Part shown: one piece after another, positions 41,211 to 64,000 of the stretch
Numbering within the stretch: the stretch's first letter is position 1
Layout: each line of letters starts with the position of its first letter
Assembly (NCBI RefSeq): GCF_018143015.1
Contig: NC_054746.1
Coordinates: forward strand, 34,442,830-34,506,829
From: Lytechinus variegatus
Taxonomy: Eukaryota; Echinodermata; Echinoidea; Temnopleuroida; Toxopneustidae
Direction: 5' to 3'
DNA length: 64,000 bases
The notes under the pieces: model-generated
Told to the model about the DNA's origin: nothing
Databases searched by the model: none
What the model saw: the letters and a program-made list of their open reading frames with translations, nothing else
Position numbers and translations under genes: made by a program

Positions 41211-41900
41211 ATAATTTCTCTGACTGCTCGAAAACTTCCTTGAGAAGAATGATATGCACCTGTCTTTTCCCTGTTCATCTTACTGCATAAGAACAGCTCC
41301 GGCACCCATATCACTAGCGTCAACCATCAGGGAGAATGGCTGACTAAAATCTGGAGCCATCAGTACAGGATTGGTAGATAGGAGTGCTTTCACTTTGTCA
41401 AAAGCACTCTGACAGTCACTGGACCAGATGAACTTCATCTCCTTGCGTAGTAGATTGGTCAGCGGGGCGACAACATCAGAGAAGTTATGGCAGAACCGTC
41501 TGTAGTAGCTTGGCATGCCAAGAAACCTCATCATTTCCTTCCGGTTGGTTGGAGTCGGGAACGCAAGAATAGCTTCTACCTTCGCTGAGAGTGGTCAAAT
41601 ATGACCTGAACCAACAACGTCACCCAAGAAACTAACAGCAGCACCTCCAAACTCACTCTTGCCAAGTTGACTGTCAATTTGGCATCAGACAATCTCCTGA
41701 ACCAATCTCTGATTCTTTGTACATGAACTTCCCAATCTTCACTACACACAATCAAGTCATCTATGTAAGCTTCACAGCCTTCAAGACCAGAGACAAGACT
41801 ATTCACAAGTCTTTGGAATGTAGACGGCTCATTTTTCATACCGAATGAAATGATAGCACAACCAGTGTTAAGTGCTGTAGAATCTGAGCTGAAACATGAA
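41211..41900 (-). mobile_element. Ty3/gypsy fossil: reverse transcriptase region
   Basis: Minus-strand pieces carry the connection region (FLGMPSYYRRFCHNFSDVV, PDFSQPFSLMVDASDMGAG) and the palm with the YIDDLIV box. They are in the order expected for the same element as the RNase H copies to the left. Broken in several places; a fossil. Confidence 0.8.
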
Positions 41901-42252
41901 CGTGAAGAGATGTGTAACATTGAGAGAGATGAACCATGTGTGAAATTGAAAAATTCAGAGGTTCTAACACACATCAATAACAAACTAACCCACTTGTCTG
42001 AGGAGAGGAGGAATGTGAAAGAGCTGTTGAATGAGTATCCGCAGTTATTTGCAGATATCCCATCTTGTACTGATGTTGTTGAACATAATGTTGATATGGA
42101 AGATACCGCCCCAATCAAGCAGGCACCTTATCGTGCTAACCCAGTAATAATGAAGAATCTTGAAAAAGAAATAGAGTACATGCTGCAGAATGGCATCATC
42201 GAGCCAAGTAGAAGATTATCTCGTCACAGGTTGGGACAACTGAGAACATTTT
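41870..42252 (+). mobile_element. Ty3/gypsy fossil: N-terminal RT segment in opposite orientation
   Basis: Plus-strand coding relic with NEYPQLFADIPSCTDVVEHN and IKQAPYRANPVIMKNLEKEI, the region just ahead of the RT fingers in Ty3 elements. It is inverted with respect to the RT pieces immediately to its left, so an inversion or a second insertion is implied. Broken. Confidence 0.75.
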
Positions 42253-45583: not shown

Positions 45584-46640
45584 CATCAGTATCTGCTAGG
45601 TAGAAACTTTACCCTCATCACTGATCACAAGCCGCTACTTCATTTGTTGGTTCCTAAGTCATCGATTCCGACAATGGCAGCATCAAGAATGCAGCGGTGG
45701 GCCATACTTCTTTCGCAGTATGACTGCAACATAGAGTGATAATACCCAAGTCATTGAGACATAAGTTACTTGATGAACTTCATTCTCAGCACTCAGGTGT
45801 TGTAGCAATGAAAGCAGTTGCTATAGGATTTATGTTTAGGCCTGGTATTGACAAAGAAATTGGGCAAATTTCTAGTAGATGTTCTGTTTGTCAAAATGTT
45901 AGAAGCAAACCACCAAGAGTACCGTTATAAACATGGCGTTGGCGAGCTAGACCATTTCAGAGAGTCCATGTAGATTTTTGTGAGTTTGATAGTGAGCATT
46001 TTCTTGTTCTCATAGATAGTCACTCTAAGTGGATAAAAGTAATTCATATGGGTACTAATACAACAACTGAGAAAACAATGGATGAACTCCGGTCCATTTT
46101 TGCTTGTCATGGTTTACCTGAACAGTTAGTTTCAGACAATGGGCCTCAATTTCATTCTGCAGCATTTCAAACTTTCATGAAACAAAATGGAATTAGGCAT
46201 ATTTTAGTTCCCACTTACCATCCAGCATCTAACAGAACTGCAGAAAGAACAGTAAGAGTAGTGAAAGAAGCTTTGAAACAGCAAGTGTTTGATGGTAGTT
46301 CTAAGTTTAGTACGAAGCGAAAACTTGCCAATTTTCTGTTGAAGTATCGTACTACTCCTCAATCAACTACTGTTTTTACACCAGCTGATCTCTTGATAAA
46401 GAGAAGGCTTAGAACAAGATTTTACCAGATCTATCTCAGAAAGTAGAAAACAAACAACAAGTCAAAAGAGATATTTCAAGGGTAGTTGGTGAGAACGTTC
46501 GTATCCTTGCTCCCCCACACTAAGAAGGTAAATGGGAGTTGGGAGAAGTTGTTACTGTTTGTGGTAGTAGAAGATATCTAGTTGATATAAGTGGTAGAAG
46601 TAGTAATGTCATGCTCCATCTGTTTGGTTAAATCTGTAGG
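45584..46640 (+). mobile_element. Ty3/gypsy fossil: RNase H end and integrase
   Basis: In order: RNase H tail (LLGRNFTLITDHKPLLHLL), integrase zinc-binding region (LDELHSQHSGVVAMKAVA with CSVCQ), and the integrase core (FACHGLPEQLVSDNGPQF, then YHPASNRTAERTVRVVKEAL). A post-core segment resembling the integrase C-terminal region follows to about 46640. Different from the 40-42 kb Ty3 copy in sequence and orientation. Broken; no LTRs identified. Confidence 0.8.
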
Positions 46641-47700: not shown

Positions 47701-49195
47701 TCCAGAGTGTTTTGTTTAAGTGAAATATCAAGTGTGAAACTGAGAGCAGTTCATGTGGAGGTGGAGCTGGTGAACAAGAAAAGGAAGCATTTCTTACAGG
47801 AACAAAGACTATGACAAGAACAATTTGAACTAAATGAAAATATAGAACTTTTCAAGATCAACGATGACAAGGAAAATGTCAAGGTTGAAGCCACTATGTG
47901 GCAAGAACAGGTCAATGAAGAAAGGGACGGAGCAGGATTTCCATCCTTTCCTAACAAGGACTTGGATAATATGCAAATTACTGAAAGGTGGTTCTCCCCC
48001 CAGATAGATTAAGAAATCATCAGGGTAGTGTACCAAATGTTCAAGATGATAATAAATGTGTGAAAGGTTAATGAACATAAACAAGTACTGGTGTAATAGG
48101 TGAAGGTAATAAGACAATTCATAAGCCGGGTAATGAAGGAGTAGGATTAAGCAGGAGAAAAAAAGTAATAACCAAATTAATGACCAAGTAAATGAACAGA
48201 AACCCCTAATACTCAATCTATTTCAGACCCCAGTCAACAACATGTATAATCTTAATATGATGGCAATGGCTTCAAATTTGCTAAAACAAGACATGCCAAC
48301 TTTCTAGGGCAATACATTGATTATTGGAATTTCGTAAATAATTTCGAAGTTAACATTGCTGGCAGAATTCATCACAGTAGGTTAAAATTGTCTTACTTAA
48401 TTCAGTTTACCTCAGGCAAGGCCAGAGAGGCCATAGAAAATTGTGTATTACTCGATCCCGATACAGGTTATTCCAGAGCAAGGATAATACTACAGGACCA
48501 TTTCGGACAGAACTACATAGTAGCTAGAGCTCATCTGGAGGTTATCAATAGATCACCACTTAGGGCAACGGACAGCCAAGGTCTGTAAGATCTAGCTAGG
48601 GACATTAGGTGTCAGATGACAACTTCTCAGATGGGGTGCTGATATGAGTACAACGGATACCCTACAGAAGATTCAAAATCTTCTCCCAGTCCACATTCAG
48701 TCCAAGTGGGCAAACCGAGCACATTCACTGATGGAGCTATCAGTGATGCCCAACTTCTCCCATCTGACGGACTTCATTGAAGAATCCACTTAGTTGGCGA
48801 GTAATATGTTCGGTGAGAGTGTCGGACGTTTGGTCGGGCAAGATAAGGCATCCTCGGGGAAGCCTCAGCTGAATGTTTCGACTTTTAATACTACAAGCAA
48901 GTCTGAGAAACCTATGCTGGACAGAGAATCATGAGCTTGAGAAGTGCCGAAAATTTAAAGGTCAGTCAATAAATGAAAGGTTTGCCTTTGTCAAGGCTAA
49001 AGGTCTATATTTCGATTGCCTCAAAGGGTCACACATGGCAAAGAGCTGCACAGCTACCCCAAAGTGCAGAAAGGCAGGGTGCAAGAAAAGACACCACACC
49101 CTTCTTCATATGGAGTGGTCCGTTAATGGTAAAGATAAAAGGCAAGAAGCAGATGACCAAACAGGGGCCGGGTATATAGCGGCATGAATATAATT
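47700..49195 (+). mobile_element. BEL/Pao fossil: gag region
   Basis: A charged coiled-coil-like stretch (47750-47960) is followed by the BEL/Pao gag core (IDYWNFVNNFEVNIAGRIHH, LIQFTSGKAREAIENCVLL, 48315-48590) and a zinc-knuckle region (GLYFDCLKGSHMAKSC, 49003-49050). These blocks are in the order expected for BEL/Pao elements. The copy is interrupted several times; protease and RT are not seen. It ends just before a mariner-type MITE. Confidence 0.75.
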
Positions 49196-49243: not shown

Positions 49244-50231
49244 CAGTGCGTATCAAAAAAAAGTTTACACTTTGAAAAAATTCTGTAAAATTATACATTT
49301 GTAGTTTCCTGAAGATTTTTCCACATTTTTACATTGGTACATGTCCATTAAAGAAAATGACGAAATAACTGTCAAAAAATATTTCCGCTTGAGTGAGCAC
49401 CACTTGCTTTTGAAAATTTAGTGAAAAATGATTTGCGCAGAACTTTGAAATAGTTATGCAAATAAAAGTAGACCTAAATCATGAAGAAAACGTGGAATTT
49501 AGCTATTAAAATTGATTTGAAGATATCCTTTACCTTTTTAAACTTGTTTCCTTGCCCAAAACACTTCGAAGAGTACATTGCGCCCCATCCCACTCCCCCA
49601 CACACCGAGGCTATCGAGACGTTATTTGCTTTACACTGAGATGTGATTTACATGAAATGGCTTAGGCTTGATTTTAATTTTGTTAATCATTGTCAAGCTT
49701 GGGGAGAGTGTGGAGAAACAAGTATTAGATGAAAAATAAAATGTAAACCCACTTCAAATTATTAAAAAAATTGAAAAAAAAAATGCTGGAGATGTCTGAT
49801 ATAAACTTTTTTTTCAGATTCAGTTATGTCCTCAGATCCAGCTGGCACAAAAAGGGTAAAGGTTGTGCTTACTATGTTGAAATTTCAATTTGGGTGGCAA
49901 AATTGTTACAAAATGCTTGAATGTATCCGTTTTATTTCAATTGACTTAAAGTGCAAGGGAAATGTATGAGAAATGTTTCGCAGGGTAAGTTTGATTTTGC
50001 CCTTTCCCCTTGACACAGCGTGAAAACGAACATTTCTGCGCAAACAGATTTCTGCGAGCTTTACAGAAATGGACAGTGCTCACTCAATTGTAACATTCTG
50101 TCAAAACTTTTACTTTCATTGGATAGATGAGACCCAAATCAATATTATATGTGAAGAAATTACCCACATGTTGTATATTTTTGAATTCCCAGCTCTTTTT
50201 CAAAGTGTAAACTTTTTTTTGATACGCACTG
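49244..50231. mobile_element. 988-bp mariner-type MITE with TA target duplication
   Basis: CAGTGCGTATCAAAAAAAAG at the left, continuing to TTTACACTTTGAAAAA, is perfectly inverted at the right end, giving 36-bp terminal inverted repeats. TA lies on both sides (49242-49243, 50232-50233). TA duplication and CAGTG-type ends fit Tc1/mariner. The interior has no transposase but keeps further inverted words (GAGTGAGCAC / GTGCTCACTC). The perfect ends suggest recent activity. Confidence 0.9.
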
Positions 50232-51235: not shown

Positions 51236-51793
51236 GAGAGAGAGTGTCACTGTGAGAATGACCCCCATAAAAGGTGACAGCAGCATGTTCACTCTAAACA
51301 TAGTTCTGTCAGATCAGGAAATCTAATCATGTAGATATCTCCTCAGTATTGAATCTCAACGCATATTTTGATGAAATGTATTTTACTTGCGTCTTAGACT
51401 TGATCACTTCATCCACCTTGACACACTGCTGATTGTTTGGTTGTTGAAAAAATTTCTGTAGGTAATTTGAGAAATTACATAGTGGCATTAGGATGACTTT
51501 TAAATTTGTTTTTAGGGAAAAAATGTCCCCCCCCCCCTTTATTGTGGAGGCTAGGATAAAACCCCAACACGTTCACCAATCGCTTCCCTTCTACATAAAT
51601 ATATTGCAGGTAAGTTGTGCTTTAAATTTTTGGATCCCATTGCACAACAGATCACTGACAGTGCTTAGTATAATGATCCCCAGGGAGAGGAGAATGTACA
51701 AAATGTGATTTAGATCGAGTGACCAACAAAAAAATATATGAAACAGAAGATAGCTATATAGAAATATATAAAAAGAGCACCCATTATCTTGCA

Positions 51794-54700
51794 TTAGTAC
51801 TGTGGGAAATCTGGATCTACTTGGTTAGCCCATGCAGTCAATCCTCCGCAAACATCCTTCACAGTGACTGGTAAAGAGTCTAACTCCTTACGTAGCTTGA
51901 GGACTACTTTCTGTGAGTCGTTACCTCTTCTGCATACAACATAAACTGTATGAAGACAGGAGATAAAAAATCAGTAAGTCAAAATCTAAATGAACTACTG
52001 AAAATTCATTTTCGTCCAATCTCATGGGAACACAGATATCCATTTTGAGATATTTAATTAGGAGGTAAATAATATACTTTCCAGATTATGATCTAAAAAA
52101 AGCTTTGGGTAAATAATTTGTCTGATGAAGTGCATTTATATCAATTCAGTATCCTGATAAACAAACATGAAACAAAGAAAACATGGGAAGTATAAAAAAA
52201 AAATCTAGACCTTTTAAGTGAACGATAGAGACATTTCTGCTATCGAAAAAGAAAACGGGAGAAAGACGCTTGTAGACTTATCAAAAAAACTAATAAAATC
52301 AACTCAAGGCAATAATTGAGAATGGTCAAAACTTCAGATTTATTCCACCCAAATAAGAATGGAGTTGGAGGTCTGCTGGAAGACTGAAGAATTTCATACT
52401 TGAGTCAACAAAGAAATGATTCACCTACCTGGAAATGAATTTTCATGTTGATTAACAAGCTGATTACTGATGATTTCTTTTAATCTGGGTATACCCTTTT
52501 CACTCTCGATGTCATCAATTGGGACATCTGTGAATCACAGGTCAAGGTCATGAACAGACATCATCTATGCTTAACAAATTATTCACAAAATTCAACCTTT
52601 CTTTACACAACATTCTTATATTCAATTCAATTTTATTCACATCTCTTTAAAAACATCATATTTGTACAGATATCACTACAACAATCCCTAGGAGTCTGTT
52701 TCCAATCCCATTAACATGCAAAAATGAAAGTTGTTTATTTTTATGATGTAATACACTACAAAATTCAGATATAGTATTTACATGTTTTGACAGCTTTTAT
52801 GAGAATTTTGAGCAACCACAGAATCTGTGTTGGGTGGTAAAGAAATAATACTCAGAATCCAACATGGGAGGAAAATCTTTGTTTCTCTCACAAAAGTTCA
52901 AGAAAATTGACGTTTACATGTTTCTAACAGAGTGTGAGTCTCAAATCAGAAGGAGACTGACCATTTATTGAGTGTAAGACACAATGGCAAAGGATACTGA
53001 TGCTGTCTGGTAATCTACAGATTTCAAATTCAATCTCAGGTCTGCAATCCAGTAGGACACGAGAAGACGAGTCTTGGCTGAGGAGTTTACTGGCAAGGGT
53101 CCGAGGGCTAAGTCTATCTTTGGGTTCCAGAAGATGTAATGTTATACACTGTAAATATAATGAAACAATAATAAAACAAGAGATACACAATAATAAAAAA
53201 AAACATACACACCCAAAACTAGGGGGTGTCTCATATAGCTACTGATATAGCAGTACTTACACAGAAATATGAATTGTCAAAATGCTAGCAAAAGTGTTTT
53301 CTTGATATTCTTAAAACAAGTACTATAATTTCCAATGCTTTTATTAATGTCAAGGATGAAATATGTGGTAAAAAACACCTGCTTGATTCTTACGAATTGA
53401 CTAATTTAGTAGAATCTTAACTATTACTATTTATCTGGAATAACATTGCATATCAAATCTGATTAGCCATTTTGGAATTTCAGTAGTCCTTTGTAAAACT
53501 CTGCTAGAAAAAAACTTTTTGTGCAGCAATCTTTGAAAATATGGAGCAAATTTTGATGCATTACCAGGAAAATTATTAAAATTATTTTTCACATAAGGTT
53601 CAAGGTAGTGCTGCAGCCGAACCGAACGGAAGTTCGCCGAACTTGGCACTTCCGAACCGGACCGAACCGAACTCAAAGGCCTGGTTCGGAAGTTCGGTAA
53701 AAAACAGTATGTTTGCATGCAATGCGTGAATGCGATGACTACATAGATTTAAGTATAAAATTAACAAAATATATATTGGTTAGTGATTGTGCACAAAGAG
53801 AATTCCACTCAATATATTTTTAAAATCCACCATGATAGCTCCCATCTCGTCTTTGATTGAACTGTTATCAACTTAAGAATATTTTATTAACATAAATATA
53901 TTTTTTCTTGATAAAATGAGGGGGCATTTTGAAGCTAAACTCGGTATAAAAGTGTGGTGTATTTACGTATTGCCGTAATCGATCGTGATCGTAATCGGAC
54001 CTAATCATTTTGTATTTAATAAAGAAAAAGAACCAGACATAAATTCATTCCTCGTAAATGACAAAGTATGACAGTTTCGGTCTCGTGTTTGATTAAATTT
54101 TTATCATTTTCAATTTTTTTTTTATAAACATGAATAGGCCTGGGAGTAAACATCGATTGATCGAATGGTTCGATTGGCATGCCGCCAATCACCAATCGAT
54201 TAGCAAAATATACACTAATCGAATGCTCGGCAGATCCCGATTATGACGTTGGCATAACTCTAATACCCAAGTAATAATAATAAATTGACAAGAAAACAAT
54301 GATGACAGCTGTTTTTTACAGGTTTAAAAATTATGTTACCGAGGTAATGTTTCAAAAATTATCAATGATTGTATCACATTCACAGTTACATACCAACATG
54401 ATAGCGCTCCGAAAATGTTAATCCCACCCGACCTTGCCCTCATACACAAAATAAGTCATTGTGTGTGCACACAATAATAAGTAAACACATAACCAGCTCA
54501 CTTGAGCTGATTGGACCTTCGGATAGCCAATGAAACTTTGGGAAACAAAGAAGCGGAAGGCATGTGGTTCCCTTTATTATCAGGAAAGTTCATGACTTCA
54601 GAAATAAATTGACCCCTAGCTCCCCCATCTGTGTGTGTGTGCGTGTGAGGGAAAGAGAGAGGGAAGGATAGGGGATGGGAGCCGGAGAATTTCTTTCATG

Positions 54701-57700
54701 TTTCAGAACAATGCAACCTTTTTTATATCCCCCTCAACCAATGAAAACTACATTCCAACACGCGCCCGCCTTCACCAGTACTTTCTCGACTAGTCTCCAA
54801 AAATAGACCCAGTTATACATGTGGGTTCAAATGATAAAAAATCGTAATTTTGAAAGGTATTTCAAATGAAATATTTTTTTTTTAAATACATGTGTAGCAT
54901 CGTGGGCAGTGCCACAAGTGGAGGCGGGGACATGGTGTGGGCAAGGGATGAAATTTTTCAAGTGAAATGCTCCACCTGGGCTCAGTCTCAAAGAATATAC
55001 TTCATGAATGAGTTGTTTACGTCTTTGGACTCGGCGGGGCTGATTCATTTATATGCAGGGGTGTAGCACTTGGAGGGATGCATGCATAATACCAGGGTAC
55101 CAGTATTGATTTAGGAAAGATTTTCATTGGAACAATAAACTGAAAGATTTAATCTCATTTCATGAAGTTTCTTTTGATATAAAAAAATCATGGAGAAGGG
55201 GGAAAAGGGCCTCATTTATGCTAAACATGTGACTTTGATGGAGATTTCTTCATGGGGGGTCACCATAAAGTAGGTCAACTATTGTGACTTAAAAGACGTG
55301 ATTCCCGACGAACAATCGAATCATTCAATTATTTTTCCAGGAAATAATCGAATGGTAATAATAACAATCGTCCCAGGCCTAAACATGAATATATTTTTTC
55401 CTTATAAAATGTGGGGACATTTTAAGCTTAACTCAGTTAAAAAGTGTAGTTGAATTACGTATTGCTGTAATCGGATGTACATTTAATTGAAAAGACATAA
55501 ATTAATTCCTTGTGACTGACAAAGTAATGGTAAAGTATATATATTCCACCTTCTGAAATTTCCATGATAATATAAAAGATATAATAGATAAATAAATAAG
55601 AGATGAAGGAATGAGGGTGAAAAAAACAAAAAAGATAAAAATTCAAACCAAATCAACGCATGTTCCCTGATCGATGTTCCGGAAATGGTTGGTAAGGAAA
55701 GTTGAAACAGGAAGTCCAAACAACCTGCTCTCGGTTGCTATTATACAGGTAAAATTCGTATTCCAAACTTGAAACGTTTTTCTATTGTCAATATTTTCTT
55801 AAAAGTGGTTTAATCTGGCCAATTACTGAAAATGAAATGATAAATTATCAGTTCCGTCTTAGTTCTGACGATCAACGCCGAGTGATTTCACAACACTAAA
55901 ATACGCAGTACAGTCCCATGTACTCATTTTCGTGTTAGAAATATGTTTGAAGTCACGTAGCGTCGATCTTTCTGGACCAAGAATGGACTGATATTTTATC
56001 TTTTTAAAGTAATTCATTGACCAGATTTTACCACTTTTCAGGAAATAGGGACTTTCTAAAACACTCATATTCTTTGGAATGTGAATTTTACCGGTATAAT
56101 AACAGTTGAGTGGAGGTTGTTTGTCTACTATTTCGACATTCCCGATCAACACTTTCCAATTTGAGAAGCTGCGTTGCAATGACATCGTAATCGATCATGA
56201 TCATAGCTACATGAAATAATCGTGAAAAAAATATTCTGATCTTTGTAATTCTATTTCTGTCCTGATTCTCTCGTTATCAATATTTTTTTCTTTTGATTTT
56301 TTTATTTTCATTTTAAAAATGAAAGTAGAAATGACTTATTTTTTGTTTATTAAAACAAAAGAAAGTTCAACAATTATCGTAACTATTCTTTTTAGAAACA
56401 AAATTTATTATTAATACATGACAGTTCATCCAAGAGATTACTTGTTTGTAGGTCGGCGATCTTTATTTTTTACATGTTAAATTTAATTTGGCATTTATTG
56501 CCGAACCCCGAACCGAACCAAAGTTCGGAAAAAAATTGCCGAACCCTGCCGAACCGAACCGAACCTGACGCCTGACTTGCAGCACTAGTTCAAGGCCCTT
56601 ACAATGAATGCTGAACAAATCTAATAGAATACCTTATCGGTTGCGCTGGCACCACAGAATTCTTCATAGTCAATGAGCTGTGTCACCGATGGATTGTCAC
56701 CGCACACAACACATGTTGGTTTTTTAGGTCTTAGTTTGATAGTCCTGTATGTACCATCTAAGCCATCAAATACCAATAGCTTCTGAGAGTATGACGCTGG
56801 TGGATTCCGTCAAGGAACATGATTTTACCATGCAAAATATAAGAGAAAGTGTTTCCTTCTTGCGATGATTGAATATCCTTAACTGTCTTGGCATGACATA
56901 TTGAATATCATCCTTAAAAAAAAATCAACAATAATCCTTTTCCTTTATTTTTCTATAAATCAAAACAAATTTAATCATAGTTGATTTCAAAGAGTATTGT
57001 TTTGATTTTCCAAAATTCATTTCTTGACTTACACTGCCTTTTTGGTCTCTAGAGACAGTGTTCAGGTACCCATATTTCTCCTAAGTCTCTGACCCACAAG
57101 TGCCTTGTGTAAACAAGTTGACAACTAAATTATGTAACTCCCATTTGGTTAAAGTACCCAATGGCTTAACCAAGTTCATTGGAAAAGGATACTGCCGATA
57201 CCAGCAGCCAATTTAATGGCTTCTAATGCTTGTATACAACCAATGATTCCAGGAACTGAAATGAATATAGAAAAGAAAGAAATAACGTAGTATTGATTTT
57301 CATTCCTCTACTAATTTCACAATGAAATACAATTTACCTTCTCAATAATGTAGTACATTACCAATCCTATGGGGCAAATATAAGGTTGATCCAATGGTGC
57401 CTTAACATTGCCTAAGTCACAAATCTCCTTGCTGATTGTATATTTTTAGTAATGTACTATTAACTCCATTTGTCAAGGGTAATGGAATAAAAAGTCATAA
57501 TTTGGTAATAATGTGTCATCAAATCTTCAAACAATTCTCCCTCCCTAATTTTTACTTTTATATTAATTTTTTTTTTTTTTTTGGGTTGTTGGTTTAATCC
57601 AGACCAAGTTCATGTTAATCCATGTTAAGCTTCAAACTATGCAAAAATGTAATATACCACATTTAATCAATGTAACTGACATTTAGAGAAAACAGAAGAG

Positions 57701-60700
57701 GAGGGGGCTATTACTCACCTACTCCTAATACACCACCTTCAGAGCAGTTGGTGACCGTCTCCGCTGGGGGAGGTTTGGGGTATAAACATCGGTAACACGG
57801 ACCCCCTTCATGATTATATACAGTGAGCTGGAAAGGGGAGAGACAATCATCATTAAAGTCAGAAATTTGTCAGCATTCATGGGAAATGTAACCCATAATG
57901 GAATTTACTTTTACAAGGAACATTGCTTCATAAAGCTTTATATCTGAAAGATTGATTCATCTGTAACCACTTTGTATAGTAAACGAGAAAAAAAAAAATT
58001 ACAAGTAATTCTTTTTCTTCGGCCCCCCCTTCCCCTTCCTCTTTTTCCTATCATTTCTATCTCTAAATTCATGATCTAAAATTCCTTGGCCAGGGTTGGG
58101 CTCAATCACCTTCTTTGATTACAATTGCATAATTGAAGAAATGTTCAATTACAATTACTTTTCAATTAAATTACACTTTTTTCAATTACAATTGCCAATT
58201 ACTTTTGTCAATTACATTGCAAATTTCAAATACTTTCTAAAAAAGTCATAAATGAAATCAATTTGTATACTTTATAAATGTACTAACATTAGTACCACCA
58301 TTTTCAACATAATTCTAAGTAACAAAGAAACTGACAAGATGAATGTTTATGTTAAAGAGCACAGATTCTGTCTATTACACTCTTTGATGCTGCAGCAGTT
58401 GACGTGAAAAAGGTCATGAAATCACATCATAAATTAAGTAAGTTTATTGTACAGTGTAAAGGTATTTGAATGTAATTAAAAGTAATTGACAGTAATTGAA
58501 GTCAATTACATTTTTCTTTCAAATACAATTACATAAAAATGTTATTAATTACGTAACTGATCGATTACCTTGTAATTGAACCCAACCCTTTCCTTGGCTA
58601 ATAATGTCTGCAAAAGTCCAACAATTTTAAACAATGGGACAGCTAATTAATCTAAAATTTCATGTATTTCCAGAACTTCAATCAAACACAAGTGTCAACA
58701 AAAATAAAATCCACCTTTCAAGAAAGTATCTCTTTTAGAGCTTACCTGTCCCTCAAACCTGAGAGCACTTCCAGAGATCAATGGCTTCCCTGAGAGCACA
58801 CATGCATCATTTAGTAGATACCTTGTAGCAACATTGTCTGTACAGTCCAATACCATATCATATGTGTAACAAAGACAATCAAGGAATAATAATCTTCTTG
58901 TTGCTAGTGCTTGCTTTATACATTATATTCTTTCTATAAATAATAATCACAAGTATTATAAATAAATGATTGGTAAGACGGTGTTCATGTGATAAAAGAT
59001 AAATTTTCACTACATTTCACAAGGCATCATCAATATTTGCAATGAGCATGCACAGCTCAACCTCTGCTAATTAATCTGTCACTATACTTTCTCCAATGTA
59101 CCCTGGTATATTTGTATACTATAAAAATATTGAAGGAATTTGTCACTTAAAACCTCATTCTTTACATTATATTCTTGGTATAACAGTAATTACTGTGAGA
59201 TTAGCTCTATCTTCTAAGTGTTTACAATTTAATTACAATTTGAAAACATTACATATTTTTGCAGTAGAATATTTCAATTCAACTTTGTTCCAGACACAGT
59301 GTAACAAAGCTAAGCAAAAAAACCTCTGCAATACTTTAGTGTTTGGACTTTATACGAAAAAAAACCTGAATAATTTCAATAAACATGCATCACCACTTGT
59401 CAAAAAAAAAATAAAATAAAATATTTGTGGGGATGGGTCCGAAAACTTGTGACATGGTATTTGGCAGTAAGCTTTTCAATACTTTGGCCTAGTTTTCCCC
59501 CATAACATTTATTTCTAATGTGACTGAGTATAATGAATGGTACAGTGTTGTACCCTGACAGGTATAAAAACAATCATATATCAAAAGAAAGGTAATGATT
59601 CATAGAATACAAATATACCAACAAAATATTACACGTATCTCCTTCCATTTCTTAAAAAATTAAATAAAAATCAAAGAAACTTCTCCTCCAAAGTACGCTT
59701 CGATTGAGCACCCCCACCTCGCCTGGAAATGATGATGTCACGTTGTGTCTGGAGGGTGATTCCATAGGTTTGTGTACAAAAGCATTGGGTGTTTTCTTCC
59801 TTTTCCATGTTATAAATCCATTTTTTTTTTTTTTCAGATGAAAATGGCACTCAAAATTATTCACTGTTCAATTGATGTAAACCTACAACTATTCACTACC
59901 TTTTTTTGCGATTTTTTTTTGGCTCTTGTTGGGCCTAAATTGCTATGTTAGGAAAAAGTTGTTATACATAATCTAAATGCAGATAGAATTGAAATATGAG
60001 CCAAATAAGCAGGAAATAAAATATGGCAAAAACTAGTTCAAAACTGTAGATTTCATAAATTCAAGCTTGTGGGAAAAAATATATGTGATATCCCTCTTTG
60101 ATAGAAGTGAAGAGAATGAAATGCGTTATCTGGAAAGCCAAAAAATCACCCAGTTTTTCTGTGTACAAACCTATGGAATCACGACGCCTCTTACACAACG
60201 TGACGTCACGGTCTCAAGGCAGGTGAAAAGCACAATAAAGCCTATTTTCTAAGCCGGGTTCGAAGCCCGATAATTGAAATATTCTTAAGCAAAATACTCA
60301 GCTGGGAAGCGGTGAAAATGCATAAAGCATACATTGCTGTATTTAGTAGCTTATAAGCTTTCGATTGGTATATAATTTGTCAATTTCATTTTTGGGTCCA
60401 GTCTGGGTCTTTAAGGTATATGCACCTCTGAACAAGCTCTAGGGTGTCTCATGAAAAGGATATTGTCTGATGATGTCCATAGCATTGCCTCTGTCTAGCT
60501 GCACTTGGTAGGCTTGACATTGCACTGATGAATTGAGGCTGGGGATATTGAAAAAAAAACAAAAACAAAAAAAAACATGTTCAATCATTTGTCACTTCCT
60601 ATTTTCTTATTTGGGGCAGTTAGAAATACAAAATGTAATGTTAATACTACAAGCTAGCTGTAATTAAATGTGCACCCAAGATCAACAAGAAAATCTGGTT

Positions 60701-62554
60701 CACAAAATGGATTTCAGAGCCACTTTTCTAACATCCCTTCTGACATATTGTTATAAAGTCTGAATAGGACCAATCCACTCATCTGAGGATAATGGTATGG
60801 GGTACGGATCTGAAACCTTTAGTATCTGCTTTAATTCAAAGAACAAAATACAAGACCTCATTCCCTTTAAAAAGTGATTCAAAAGATTTCAGACATACCT
60901 TATGATATTTGATAGACCACCCTTCCTTCCTTACCAAAGTACATAATTGCAGTCTTTGCAGATTGGAACTATACAGTCCAGAGACCAACACACCAGTGGT
61001 GTAGTGCCTTGATACTTGGCCTTTGCCTTGGGCCTATTTTTACCATGCCTTGGCCTTGAGGGTTTGGGCCTTGAATACAACACTGCAACACACCTTACTA
61101 GTGTCTACTTAGTGATCTTTACACCTACTTTTTAACACTAGACTTGATAGATTCTGACTTGGACCATCCCACTTTCTGCTCTGTATGGAGGATCTGTCTG
61201 TGAAGGTTACTCAGTTCTACCTCATCGTAGTCCACAACCCCGAGTCGACCTGGAATTTAAAATTCAATTCTGTATTCAATAATACTAATAATTAATGAAT
61301 ATCATTCATACCATAACTTTAATTGTAACCAAGACCATTCCACACAAGACTGATAGTCAAATATTTGAAGAAGAAAGAAAAATGAGGGGGAAAAATATAA
61401 AGGAACCTGTTCTCATCATTCAAACCTTATTTTACCTGACTTGACTGACACATACCAATACCAGCAGCAGCAAGATAGACAGCAGCTGGGCAACCAAGAC
61501 CACCAGCACCAATGATCAATGCTGAAGAATTAGTAATCTGCAGCTGACCTGGAGGTTGAATAGAAAAATATAAAATGAGTAAAAGACTTTGTACGTCTCT
61601 GTGAAATTCATAAAATTATAAATTTTCACAAATAAAAATCCATTATGTATTTGAGAGAGGAAAACATGAAGTTCAGTATTGGCTAGCATGACTGGTGACT
61701 CTTACTTATGCTAATGAGAATTCCCTACTTTTTCTGATTTAACACAATGTGAGCGCATTTTCTGTAAATCTCAAACAAACTTGGAGAAATTTTGAATTTT
61801 CAACTCATATGCTTGTTAAAAAAATATTTTCATCTATAAACTTTACCTGATAGGAATAAAAAATATTGAGAATCTGATTAACAACCCATGAAGGTTACTA
61901 GAAAAAAAAATGAATCAAACCCTTGGAATGTCAGAGACAATTGAACTTTATTGGATGAATATAATTTGGACAAAACAAAAAGGGCTTTGCGATTACTTCA
62001 TGTACAGAACAGCTTTTTCTTCCTACATATCTGCTTGTTTTCAAGGTTTGAAATTTCAGTTTTCACAGCAATAATATTCTTTATAAAATGGTAATGAAAT
62101 GTTATATGGCTAGTCATTTCATTGTCCTCTTGATAGCAAGTACATTACATGACATTTTTAAATAGAGAGGGTACAGATGACTATTTTCTAAGATTTAGCT
62201 ACATCAAATGGATGTTCAAAGGATGATTCTCAAAATATAAATGCTGCATGTCCCTTGTGCCTTTGCCGGGATCTGCCTCTGAAATTGTTATATACACTAT
62301 ACCAGCTGTAATATTTGCTTTGTGTTACAAATCTTACAATAACATCCAACTTGTTCAGGTTGTTTTTTTCTTCTGTTTTCATATGGCTGAAATTGTTTCA
62401 AAAGATTTTTAGATATCTAACCTTTGACTCCTAGTTCTGGTAGTATGAGCTGTCTGCTATATCTCTTGATGCTAGCATTATCCAGATTGGAGATGTTTGA
62501 ACTCTTTTCAGCGAACATGCCGTTGCTTGAATCATGCTCTGTCTTAGCTTTCAT
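51794..62554 (-). CDS. MOCS3: MOCS3/UBA4: E1-like sulfur-carrier-activating enzyme with rhodanese domain
   Basis: Eleven coding exons (62554-62422, 61548-61456, 61249-61129, 60538-60464, 58863-58746, 57827-57719, 57255-57193, 56796-56633, 53148-52998, 52527-52429, 51945-51794) join in frame to 425 residues ending DFPQY. The enzyme adenylates and thiolates the C-termini of URM1 and MOCS2A in the cytosol, feeding tRNA thiolation and molybdenum cofactor synthesis. Visible: [15 protein letters not shown]-binding GAGGLGC (58-64); DCTDN; zinc pairs CYRC (191/194) and CVVC (266/269); E1-type active Cys208 in TNCSEGG; rhodanese domain from about 295 with active-loop Cys380 in CRRGNDSQ. The human protein is about 460 residues, the difference being an N-terminal coiled coil not found here. 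The start is the first ATG right after the acceptor; a 5' exon probably exists. Human MOCS3 is intronless. Confidence 0.95.
52528..52997 (-). other. U12-type GT-AG intron 9 of MOCS3
   Basis: Donor GTATCCTTTG (52997-52988) follows codon ATC plus one base in the rhodanese domain. The acceptor is CACAG (last base 52528). A branch-like GACCTTGAC lies at 52549-52541, its A about 14 bases from the acceptor. Donor matches the minor-spliceosome consensus RTATCCTTT exactly; the branch box matches 7 of 9 of TTCCTTRAC. It contains a ~75-bp fragment (52667-52740) of the MITE family found in the PH-gene intron. Confidence 0.85.
54135..55381. mobile_element. nested hAT-type element, 1247 bp, 8-bp target duplication
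   Basis: Ends TAGGCCTGGGA ... TCCCAGGCCTA with AACATGAA on both sides (54127-54134, 55382-55389). ATCGATTGATCGAATGG and ATCGAATCATTC / AATAATCGAATGG make subterminal repeats. No transposase. Inserted into the 53606-56587 element, so it is the younger of the two. Confidence 0.9.
55859..56185 (-). CDS. unexplained 108-codon open frame inside a hAT element
   Basis: Starts [20 protein letters not shown] and runs through [20 protein letters not shown] to [12 protein letters not shown]. Amino-acid composition is ordinary (not low complexity) and it is the longest frame in the region. It shows no hAT dimerisation or zinc-finger motif. It could be a remnant of the element's own protein, a captured host exon, or chance. 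Confidence 0.25.
   Translation of the reverse strand: MSLQRSFSNWKVLIGNVEIVDKQPPLNCYYTGKIHIPKNMSVLESPYFLKSGKIWSMNYFKKIKYQSILGPERSTLRDFKHISNTKMSTWDCTAYFSVVKSLGVDRQN
56797..57192 (-). other. U12-type GT-AG intron 7 of MOCS3
   Basis: Donor GTATCCTTTT (57192-57183), branch TTCCTTGAC (56817-56809) and acceptor ATCCACCAG (last base 56797). The branch A at 56810 lies 13 bases from the acceptor. Donor and branch both match the minor-spliceosome consensus perfectly. Splicing here joins LAAGIG to [12 protein letters not shown], in register with the human protein. Confidence 0.93.
58091..58590. mobile_element. 500-bp hAT-type MITE, 8-bp target duplication
   Basis: Ends CAGGGTTGGGCTCAAT ... ATTGAACCCAACCCTT, flanked by TCCTTGGC (58083-58090, 58591-58598). 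The interior is filled with ACAATTACAATTAC-type repeats near both ends. Lies in MOCS3 intron 5 (57828-58745). Confidence 0.9.
58864..60463 (-). other. U12-type AT-AC intron 4 of MOCS3
   Basis: Donor ATATCCTTTTC (60463-60453), branch TTCCTTGAT (58886-58878, A at 58879) and terminal dinucleotide AC (58865-58864, GTTACAC|ATATG). Only this AT-AC junction restores [14 protein letters not shown], as in MOCS3 proteins; no GT or AG is available at either edge. Branch-to-acceptor distance is 15 bases, within the short range of U12 introns. Confidence 0.93.
59700..60260. mobile_element. MITE-like inverted repeat in MOCS3 intron 4
   Basis: CACCTCGCCTGGAAATGATG, TGTCACGTTGTGT and TGATTCCATAGGTTTGTGTA (59716-59780) are inverted as TACAAACCTATGGAATCACG and ACACAACGTGACGTCA at 60162-60216. 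About 110-bp arms, 290-bp loop. Terminal sequences and target duplication not resolved. Confidence 0.6.
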
Positions 62555-63019
62555 CTAGATAATAAGAACAACATTTACAAACCAAAAATAACAAATACAA
62601 TTTTCAATTGCTACAAATTAATCTATTTTTTATAGCAAGACCCTTTTGTAAATCATTCATTTTTATGTGTATGCAATATGTCTGGTATTCAGAAACATGC
62701 ATATAAATTCTACTACCAAAATCAGGCATAGGCCTCCACTTTTGCAATCGACATATATCATTGTGTATGGTTACTCTTCAGCTGGACCAGCCGTTTTACA
62801 GTAACGTAATGGAAAATAATGAAAATTATCAGTATTGATAAAATGATTACCCAGAACAGATGGTAAATGTTGTCATAAAAGTACTTGATACAAGCACAAA
62901 CTGTACGGGCACTCACATACATTGGCGACAATATTATTAGCATTATTTTGATACCCCCACAAAAAAAATTAAAACATGAATTAATAAAAAAAAAATTATT
63001 TACCATTTTATATCACACC

Positions 63020-63245
63020 TGTAAATCATGAACATGGTGACTGAGTATTGTTATTTTTTTTTCAAAGAAATCTCTGTAAAGACGTGCTTGCATATAGTGC
63101 AAGCGCATTTGAATTCAATAAACTGCCACAATCTCGTTCCTTTGCCACACCTCCTGGCAACTAATACGCAATGCAATTTTATTGTGACGTAACAATAGAT
63201 TCATGCGCACAATCATTTATTGACCAATGACAATCTTGTCATGTG
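63020..63245 (-). promoter_or_regulatory. candidate MOCS3 promoter and non-coding first exon
   Basis: Reading the minus strand, TCATTGGTCAATAA (an inverted CCAAT box) and GTTACGTCACAAT (CRE-like) precede a stretch ending ATTTACAG|GTGTGA, a usable donor (63019-63018). It would splice to the exon starting at 62554. The only ATGs in this stretch lead to a very short upstream frame that would stop at the splice junction, so the exon is at best leader. Supported by motifs and position only. Confidence 0.35.
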
Positions 63246-63339
63246 ACCTGAAACTCGCACAGGATGTTTAGTGAAGAGTCTGAATGCATGCATGCGTGGA
63301 CGTCGGACATATCTTTTTTGGCTCTCCAGATTTATTTAA

Positions 63340-63917
<578 letters not shown>

Positions 63918-63925
<8 letters not shown>

Positions 63926-64000
63926 GTGGAATGCCTCTGGCGGTCTCACCTGTATCACGCGATTCAATATAGCAACAGTGCTGACTTTGAAAACTACTAT
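63918..64000. repeat. second copy of the 11785 repeat, cut by the window edge
   Basis: AACAAGTGGAATGCCTCTGG, CGGTCTCACCTGTATCACG, CTGACTTTGAAAACTACTAT with about five differences from 11785-11868. It directly abuts the LINE relic. Confidence 0.85.

Follow-up and report, generated by a model that had tools for sequence, protein, structure and literature searches.

A gene for MOCS3/UBA4 lies on the minus strand of a 64,000-nucleotide (nt) stretch of the echinoid Lytechinus variegatus (assembly GCF_018143015.1, contig NC_054746.1, positions 34,442,830 to 34,506,829 of the forward strand), called the window here. Of its ten or more introns, the fourth, seventh and ninth very probably belong to the U12 type (one AT-AC, two GT-AG). 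Enzymes of the MOCS3/UBA4 kind activate MOCS2A/URM1 and transfer sulfur, and they also have a role in tRNA thiolation. Eleven exons between 62554 and 51794 join into 1278 nt, which encode 425 residues with no internal stop. In the conceptual protein, Pfam places a ThiF domain (PF00899, residues 32-267, E 5.7e-84) and, C-terminal to it, a rhodanese domain (PF00581, residues 319-416, E 1.1e-9). The top solved relatives of this predicted protein are Uba4 chains, and the human MOCS3 rhodanese (3i2v) is matched as well. Cysteine motifs are found at residues 206-208 (TNC), 190 (PCYRC), 266 (CVVC), and 379 (VCRRGNDS), and these presumably correspond to the thioester cysteine, the two zinc CxxC pairs, and the rhodanese active-site cysteine of MOCS3. 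An AATAAA follows exon 11, at 51543. From its sequence, the gene looks intact.

The count of eleven exons comes from an earlier note on this DNA. The intact 425-residue reading bears it out, but only as a minimum, since one more exon may lie 5' of 62554. Immediately before the first ATG (62555-62614, minus strand), the sequence has a TAG in frame and a T-rich tract that closes with AG, much like a 3' splice site. Because this tract adjoins the first ATG, the model may be short of one 5' exon. Human MOCS3 has a longer N-terminus than the model.

The case for the three introns starts with their splicing signals, scored against the consensus sequences (donor RTATCCTTT and branch site TTCCTTRAY). 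Intron 4 spans 1600 nt and reads ATATCCTTTT...TTCCTTGAT...CAC, intron 7 spans 396 nt and reads GTATCCTTTT...TTCCTTGAC...CAG, and intron 9 spans 470 nt and reads GTATCCTTTG...GACCTTGAC...CAG. All three match the donor consensus at 9/9 positions, compared to 3-7 of 9 in the remaining seven introns. The branch site matches at 9/9 in introns 4 and 7 and more weakly in intron 9, at 7/9 with an intact 7/7 core. The earlier note had called these textbook donor and branch signals, a description that suits every donor and two of the branch sites, while intron 9 retains the core only. The same note had placed the branch sites 13-15 bases before the 3' ends, and the branch A is indeed measured at 15, 13, and 14 nt from the ends of introns 4, 7, and 9. 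PMC6717393 gives 11-13 nt as the optimum spacing, so the 15 nt of intron 4 is slightly beyond it. The three introns have phases 2, 1, and 1, in keeping with a report that minor introns tend to avoid phase 0 (PMC10639083).

The same introns also stand out on a simple U2 donor score: introns 4, 7, and 9 have values of -5.6, -6.4, and -7.0, below each of the other seven, which score 0.5 to 7.1. The nearest of those seven to the U12 pattern is intron 8. Its donor GTATTCTAT matches at 7/9, its best candidate branch site reaches 6/9 at 27 nt, and its U2 donor score is weak (0.46). The motif scores and the junction tests described below thus support the division proposed earlier, with three introns assigned to the U12 type and the remaining seven to the U2 type. 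Rfam returned no match at gathering level in the whole window and none at E <=1 in 51500-64000. The coordinates of the exons and of the minor-intron signals are collected in Table 1.

Table 1. Exons of the MOCS3/UBA4 gene model and predicted U12-type introns with their signals (window positions)
Feature	Position	Strand	Basis or remark
Exon 1	62422..62554	-	joined open reading frame; starts at first ATG; the true first coding exon may lie upstream
Exon 2	61456..61548	-	joined open reading frame
Exon 3	61129..61249	-	joined open reading frame
Exon 4	60464..60538	-	joined open reading frame
Intron 4, predicted U12-type AT-AC, phase 2	58864..60463	-	donor 9/9, branch 9/9; best of 42 junction pairs vs 6yub
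Intron 4 U12 5' splice site ATATCCTTT	60455..60463	-	motif match
Intron 4 U12 branch site TTCCTTGAT	58878..58886	-	9/9
Exon 5	58746..58863	-	joined open reading frame
Exon 6	57719..57827	-	joined open reading frame
Exon 7	57193..57255	-	joined open reading frame
Intron 7, predicted U12-type GT-AG, phase 1	56797..57192	-	donor 9/9, branch 9/9; best of 34 junction pairs vs 1jw9
Intron 7 U12 5' splice site GTATCCTTT	57184..57192	-	motif match
Intron 7 U12 branch site TTCCTTGAC	56809..56817	-	9/9
Exon 8	56633..56796	-	joined open reading frame
Exon 9	52998..53148	-	joined open reading frame
Intron 9, predicted U12-type GT-AG, phase 1	52528..52997	-	donor 9/9, branch 7/9; best of 33 junction pairs vs 3i2v and 6yub
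Intron 9 U12 5' splice site GTATCCTTT	52989..52997	-	motif match
Intron 9 branch-site-like GACCTTGAC, core CCTTGAC	52541..52549	-	7/9, core 7/7
Exon 10	52429..52527	-	joined open reading frame
Exon 11, includes stop codon	51794..51945	-	joined open reading frame

A rival reading is that the U12-like motifs arose by chance and that the major spliceosome removes all three introns. Over the 2 x 64 kb of both strands, six exact copies of the donor 9-mer are present where about 2.06 are expected, so there are three copies in the window besides the donors of introns 4, 7, and 9. The exact branch consensus TTCCTTRAY is found three times against 4.5 expected over the same length, and two of the three copies are those of introns 4 and 7. 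On the minus strand, only 4 of 9638 GT or AT sites match the donor at 9/9, and a 7/7 CCTTRAY core stands 10-16 nt ahead of 0.24% of 6756 AG or AC ends. Post hoc arithmetic puts the probability of three chance matches among ten donors at about 1e-8 or below. In 40 runs of simulated sequence, a loose pair was defined as an exact donor with a branch site of at most one mismatch within 6 kb. The mean was 1.9 such donors and the maximum six, compared to four in the window (introns 4, 7, and 9, and one at 49523 on the plus strand), so loose pairing alone is no evidence; intron 9's own branch site, in fact, fails the one-mismatch rule. Pairs exact in both donor and branch averaged 0.15 with a maximum of one in the simulations, and the window has two such donors. 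Added to this are the U2 donor scores, lowest of the ten in just these introns, and the structure of intron 4. That intron can slide by 4 nt with the same mRNA, but it is AT-AC only in the register of Table 1 and GT-AG in none, and each of the five GT-AG alternatives that leave the frame open has a donor score below zero. Chance is therefore a scarcely credible source of all three sets of signals.

How firmly the junctions are placed was assessed by considering every frame-open GT-AG, GC-AG, or AT-AC pair within 70 nt, the tabulated ones counted in. This leaves 42 pairs for intron 4, 34 for intron 7, and 33 for intron 9, so the junctions are not forced by reading frame alone, and it is the alignment to solved relatives that fixes them. 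Against 6yub (Uba4 of Chaetomium), the tabulated junction of intron 4 ranks first with 215.7 bits, the next reaching 206.9. For intron 7, it is first against 1jw9 (MoeB of E. coli) with 38.6 bits to 34.4. For intron 9, it is first against both 3i2v (81.4 bits to 76.3) and 6yub (70.2 bits to 63.2). The alignments run without a gap across junction 4 (6yub), junction 7 (1jw9), and junction 9 (3i2v and 6yub). A hidden Markov model (HMM) was also built from nine plasmid-borne homologs, eight bacterial and one archaeal, drawn from 413 matching records of which 10 span 80% or more of the query; it ranks the tabulated junctions of introns 4 and 7 first at 414.1 bits, with the next at 402.3 and 408.0. 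The coordinates claimed earlier for the three introns, one of them AT-AC, are thus recovered when the exons are joined and read. The accompanying claim that frame and alignment each force the junctions survives for alignment to solved relatives, but not for frame, and the HMM fails to separate the candidates at intron 9. An in-frame GT at 57201 (minus strand), 9 nt upstream of the intron 7 donor, would cost three residues and has a U2 donor score of -1.5.

Several observations weigh against this assignment. The HMM ranks the tabulated junction of intron 9 seventh, with six alternatives 0.1 to 2.1 bits higher; six of its nine members extend to intron 9, and the other three end near residue 290-307. 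The branch site of intron 9 is two mismatches off consensus, and a branch match of at least 7/9 is found near about 18% of 4000 sampled AG or AC ends. At junction 7, the 6yub alignment ends ahead of the junction, and in the alignment to the ThiF structure 1zud a gap of one residue opens a few residues past it. A frame-open GC-AG alternative for intron 4 has a donor score of 3.0, although it aligns worse in the HMM (394.4 compared to 414.1 bits).

One could consider that only introns 4 and 7 are U12-type and that intron 9 is removed by the major spliceosome or by mixed use of the two, for example, from a U2-like GT 36 nt downstream of its donor. This GT (GTCAGTCTC, at 52961 on the minus strand) has a U2 score of 2.4 and keeps the frame open with 12 added residues, and the 7/9 branch site and the bacterial HMM, which gives the tabulated junction no preference, would also fit. 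However, the donor of intron 9 is a 9/9 match with a 7/7 branch core at 14 nt, its tabulated junction is the first of 33 against Uba4 as well as human MOCS3, and the seven junctions listed for each protein do not include the +36 donor. Such an exception for intron 9 is very unlikely, and the U12 type for all three introns is the reading followed here.

What the gene would require of the splicing machinery follows from this assignment. In the proposed scheme, the U11/U12 di-snRNP (small nuclear ribonucleoprotein) would recognize each of the three introns, with U11 at RTATCCTTT and U12 at the branch site; the minor spliceosome would then remove introns 4, 7, and 9 and the major spliceosome the other seven, so that full-length MOCS3 would need three minor-spliceosome events per transcript. 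Retention of intron 4, 7, or 9 leads to a stop after 22, 14, or 71 nt, respectively. Skipping by the major spliceosome, as reported upon minor-spliceosome inhibition (PMC8034651), does not rescue the frame, as U2-site skips around the minor introns (exons 4-5, 7-8, and 9-10) shift it in all three cases. Since either retention or U2-only skipping of any of the three breaks the frame, full-length MOCS3 should depend on the minor spliceosome. Skips from one minor intron to another differ in effect; loss of exons 5-7 or 5-9 shifts the frame, while loss of exons 8-9 (315 nt) keeps it.

This dependence could be regulatory. For minor introns in general, a stress-regulated limit set by U6atac has been proposed (PMC3728624). 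On that basis the three introns of MOCS3 might act as successive gates, so that U6atac levels would govern both the thiolation of tRNA wobble uridines and the synthesis of molybdenum cofactor, and joining of the intron 7 donor to the intron 9 acceptor, dropping exons 8-9, could yield a shortened protein. If true, MOCS3 would in this lineage rely on the minor spliceosome to an unusual degree, with a tie to U6atac that has no counterpart in the single-exon human gene. We regard this as doubtful. A regulatory bottleneck is spoken against by the statement in PMC7367187 that the excision of U12 introns is not slow enough to influence expression, and ancestral retention of the introns without special regulation is taken as the default.

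As to the origin of the three introns, ancient retention is the likeliest and a probable one: older minor introns would have been kept, without conversion to the U2 type, in a gene once rich in them. Alternatively, and on the question of origin only, the introns could be recent gains, either because one was copied into the others or because U2-type introns were converted. Introns 7 and 9 do agree at 16/18 nt of the donor, two exon bases included, but this match is mostly donor consensus. BLAST among introns 4, 7, and 9 gave short matches only, of which the strongest joins the donor regions of introns 7 and 9 (E 0.008), and hence there is no sign of recent intron copying. With no longer similarity among the three, duplication between them is unsupported, and recent gain as a whole is improbable. 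Relatives of the locus were also sought with patterns from one protein, which reach close relatives only; the contig collection gave seven pattern matches, none confirmed, and the viral contigs gave no pattern match.

Other features noted in the window are reverse transcriptase and integrase remnants and an apparently isolated exon. Intron 8 (53149-56632, minus strand, 3484 nt) has, by eye, GTTCGG-rich repeats near both ends, which suggests that it holds an inserted element. At 63542-63724 on the plus strand is a single SRP54 N-domain exon with a splice-like AG before it and a GT after it (SRP54_N, Pfam E 2.6e-10 over the open reading frame [ORF] 63542-63817, plus strand). It is 80% identical to residues 27-87 of human SRP54, and no second match in the window to an N-terminal stretch of SRP54 falls below E 0.36; a neighboring SRP54 gene was considered and dropped in favor of an isolated exon. 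By eye, reverse-transcriptase-like peptides flank it at about 63390-63540 and 63816-63998, and the exon looks as if it were inserted into an element of the long interspersed nuclear element (LINE) type. A Pfam scan that covered the left side only found no family in ORF 63284-63514. Pfam was further run on 20 other ORFs, chosen from ORF lists and from a coding-score ranking of the 732 ORFs that are 40 codons or longer, and on one ORF beyond those. The 20 gave three matches at E <=0.01, and the additional one gave the reverse transcriptase match. These scans found a reverse transcriptase remnant at 41576-42118 (minus strand, RVT_1, E 1.8e-8), an integrase core remnant at 45931-46443 (plus strand, rve, E 2.4e-16), and, at 48256-48585, a weak DUF1759 match (E 0.003) under Pfam's cut-off.

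Three minor introns in one gene are rare but of a known kind. The earlier note had found the number striking, and rare it is: among 714 human minor-intron genes, 50 have two minor introns and three have three (PMC6717393), and a few cases with three are known (PMC3584512). At a genome-wide 0.3-0.5% and assuming independent introns, the probability of at least three in ten is 3e-6 to 1.5e-5. However, such genes were already known, and clustering of minor introns within genes was seen in each of the 21 genomes tested (PMC7367187); they are hence not independent. The human multi-minor-intron genes likewise have several U12-type introns among U2-type ones, with GT-AG commoner than AT-AC. According to PMC3584512, enzymes of cofactor synthesis are nearly free of U12-type introns, and RNA processing and translation are among the usual classes. 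MOCS3 differs from the usual classes as a cofactor-synthesis enzyme and would fit them through its role in tRNA thiolation. No account of minor introns in MOCS3, UBA4, or CNX5 was found in the open-licence literature, supplementary tables being outside its reach and UBA4 being covered among the matches listed.

Uba4 (6yub) and MoeB (1jw9), which share the homologous adenylation domain and were used to fix junctions 4 and 7, are compared here as proteins only. The closest comparison is with human MOCS3. It has the same enzyme architecture, and its rhodanese domain (3i2v) aligns ungapped across the intron 9 junction of this gene, but it is a single 1383-bp exon (PMC10135228), compared to at least ten introns here. 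That the human gene has no minor intron, as had been noted, is true only for this reason, and so it is uninformative on intron class; retroposition would explain the single exon. The L. variegatus gene could be used to ask whether the presence of several minor introns ties the expression of a gene to the minor spliceosome and, set beside its one-exon human counterpart, how all the minor introns of a gene can be lost.
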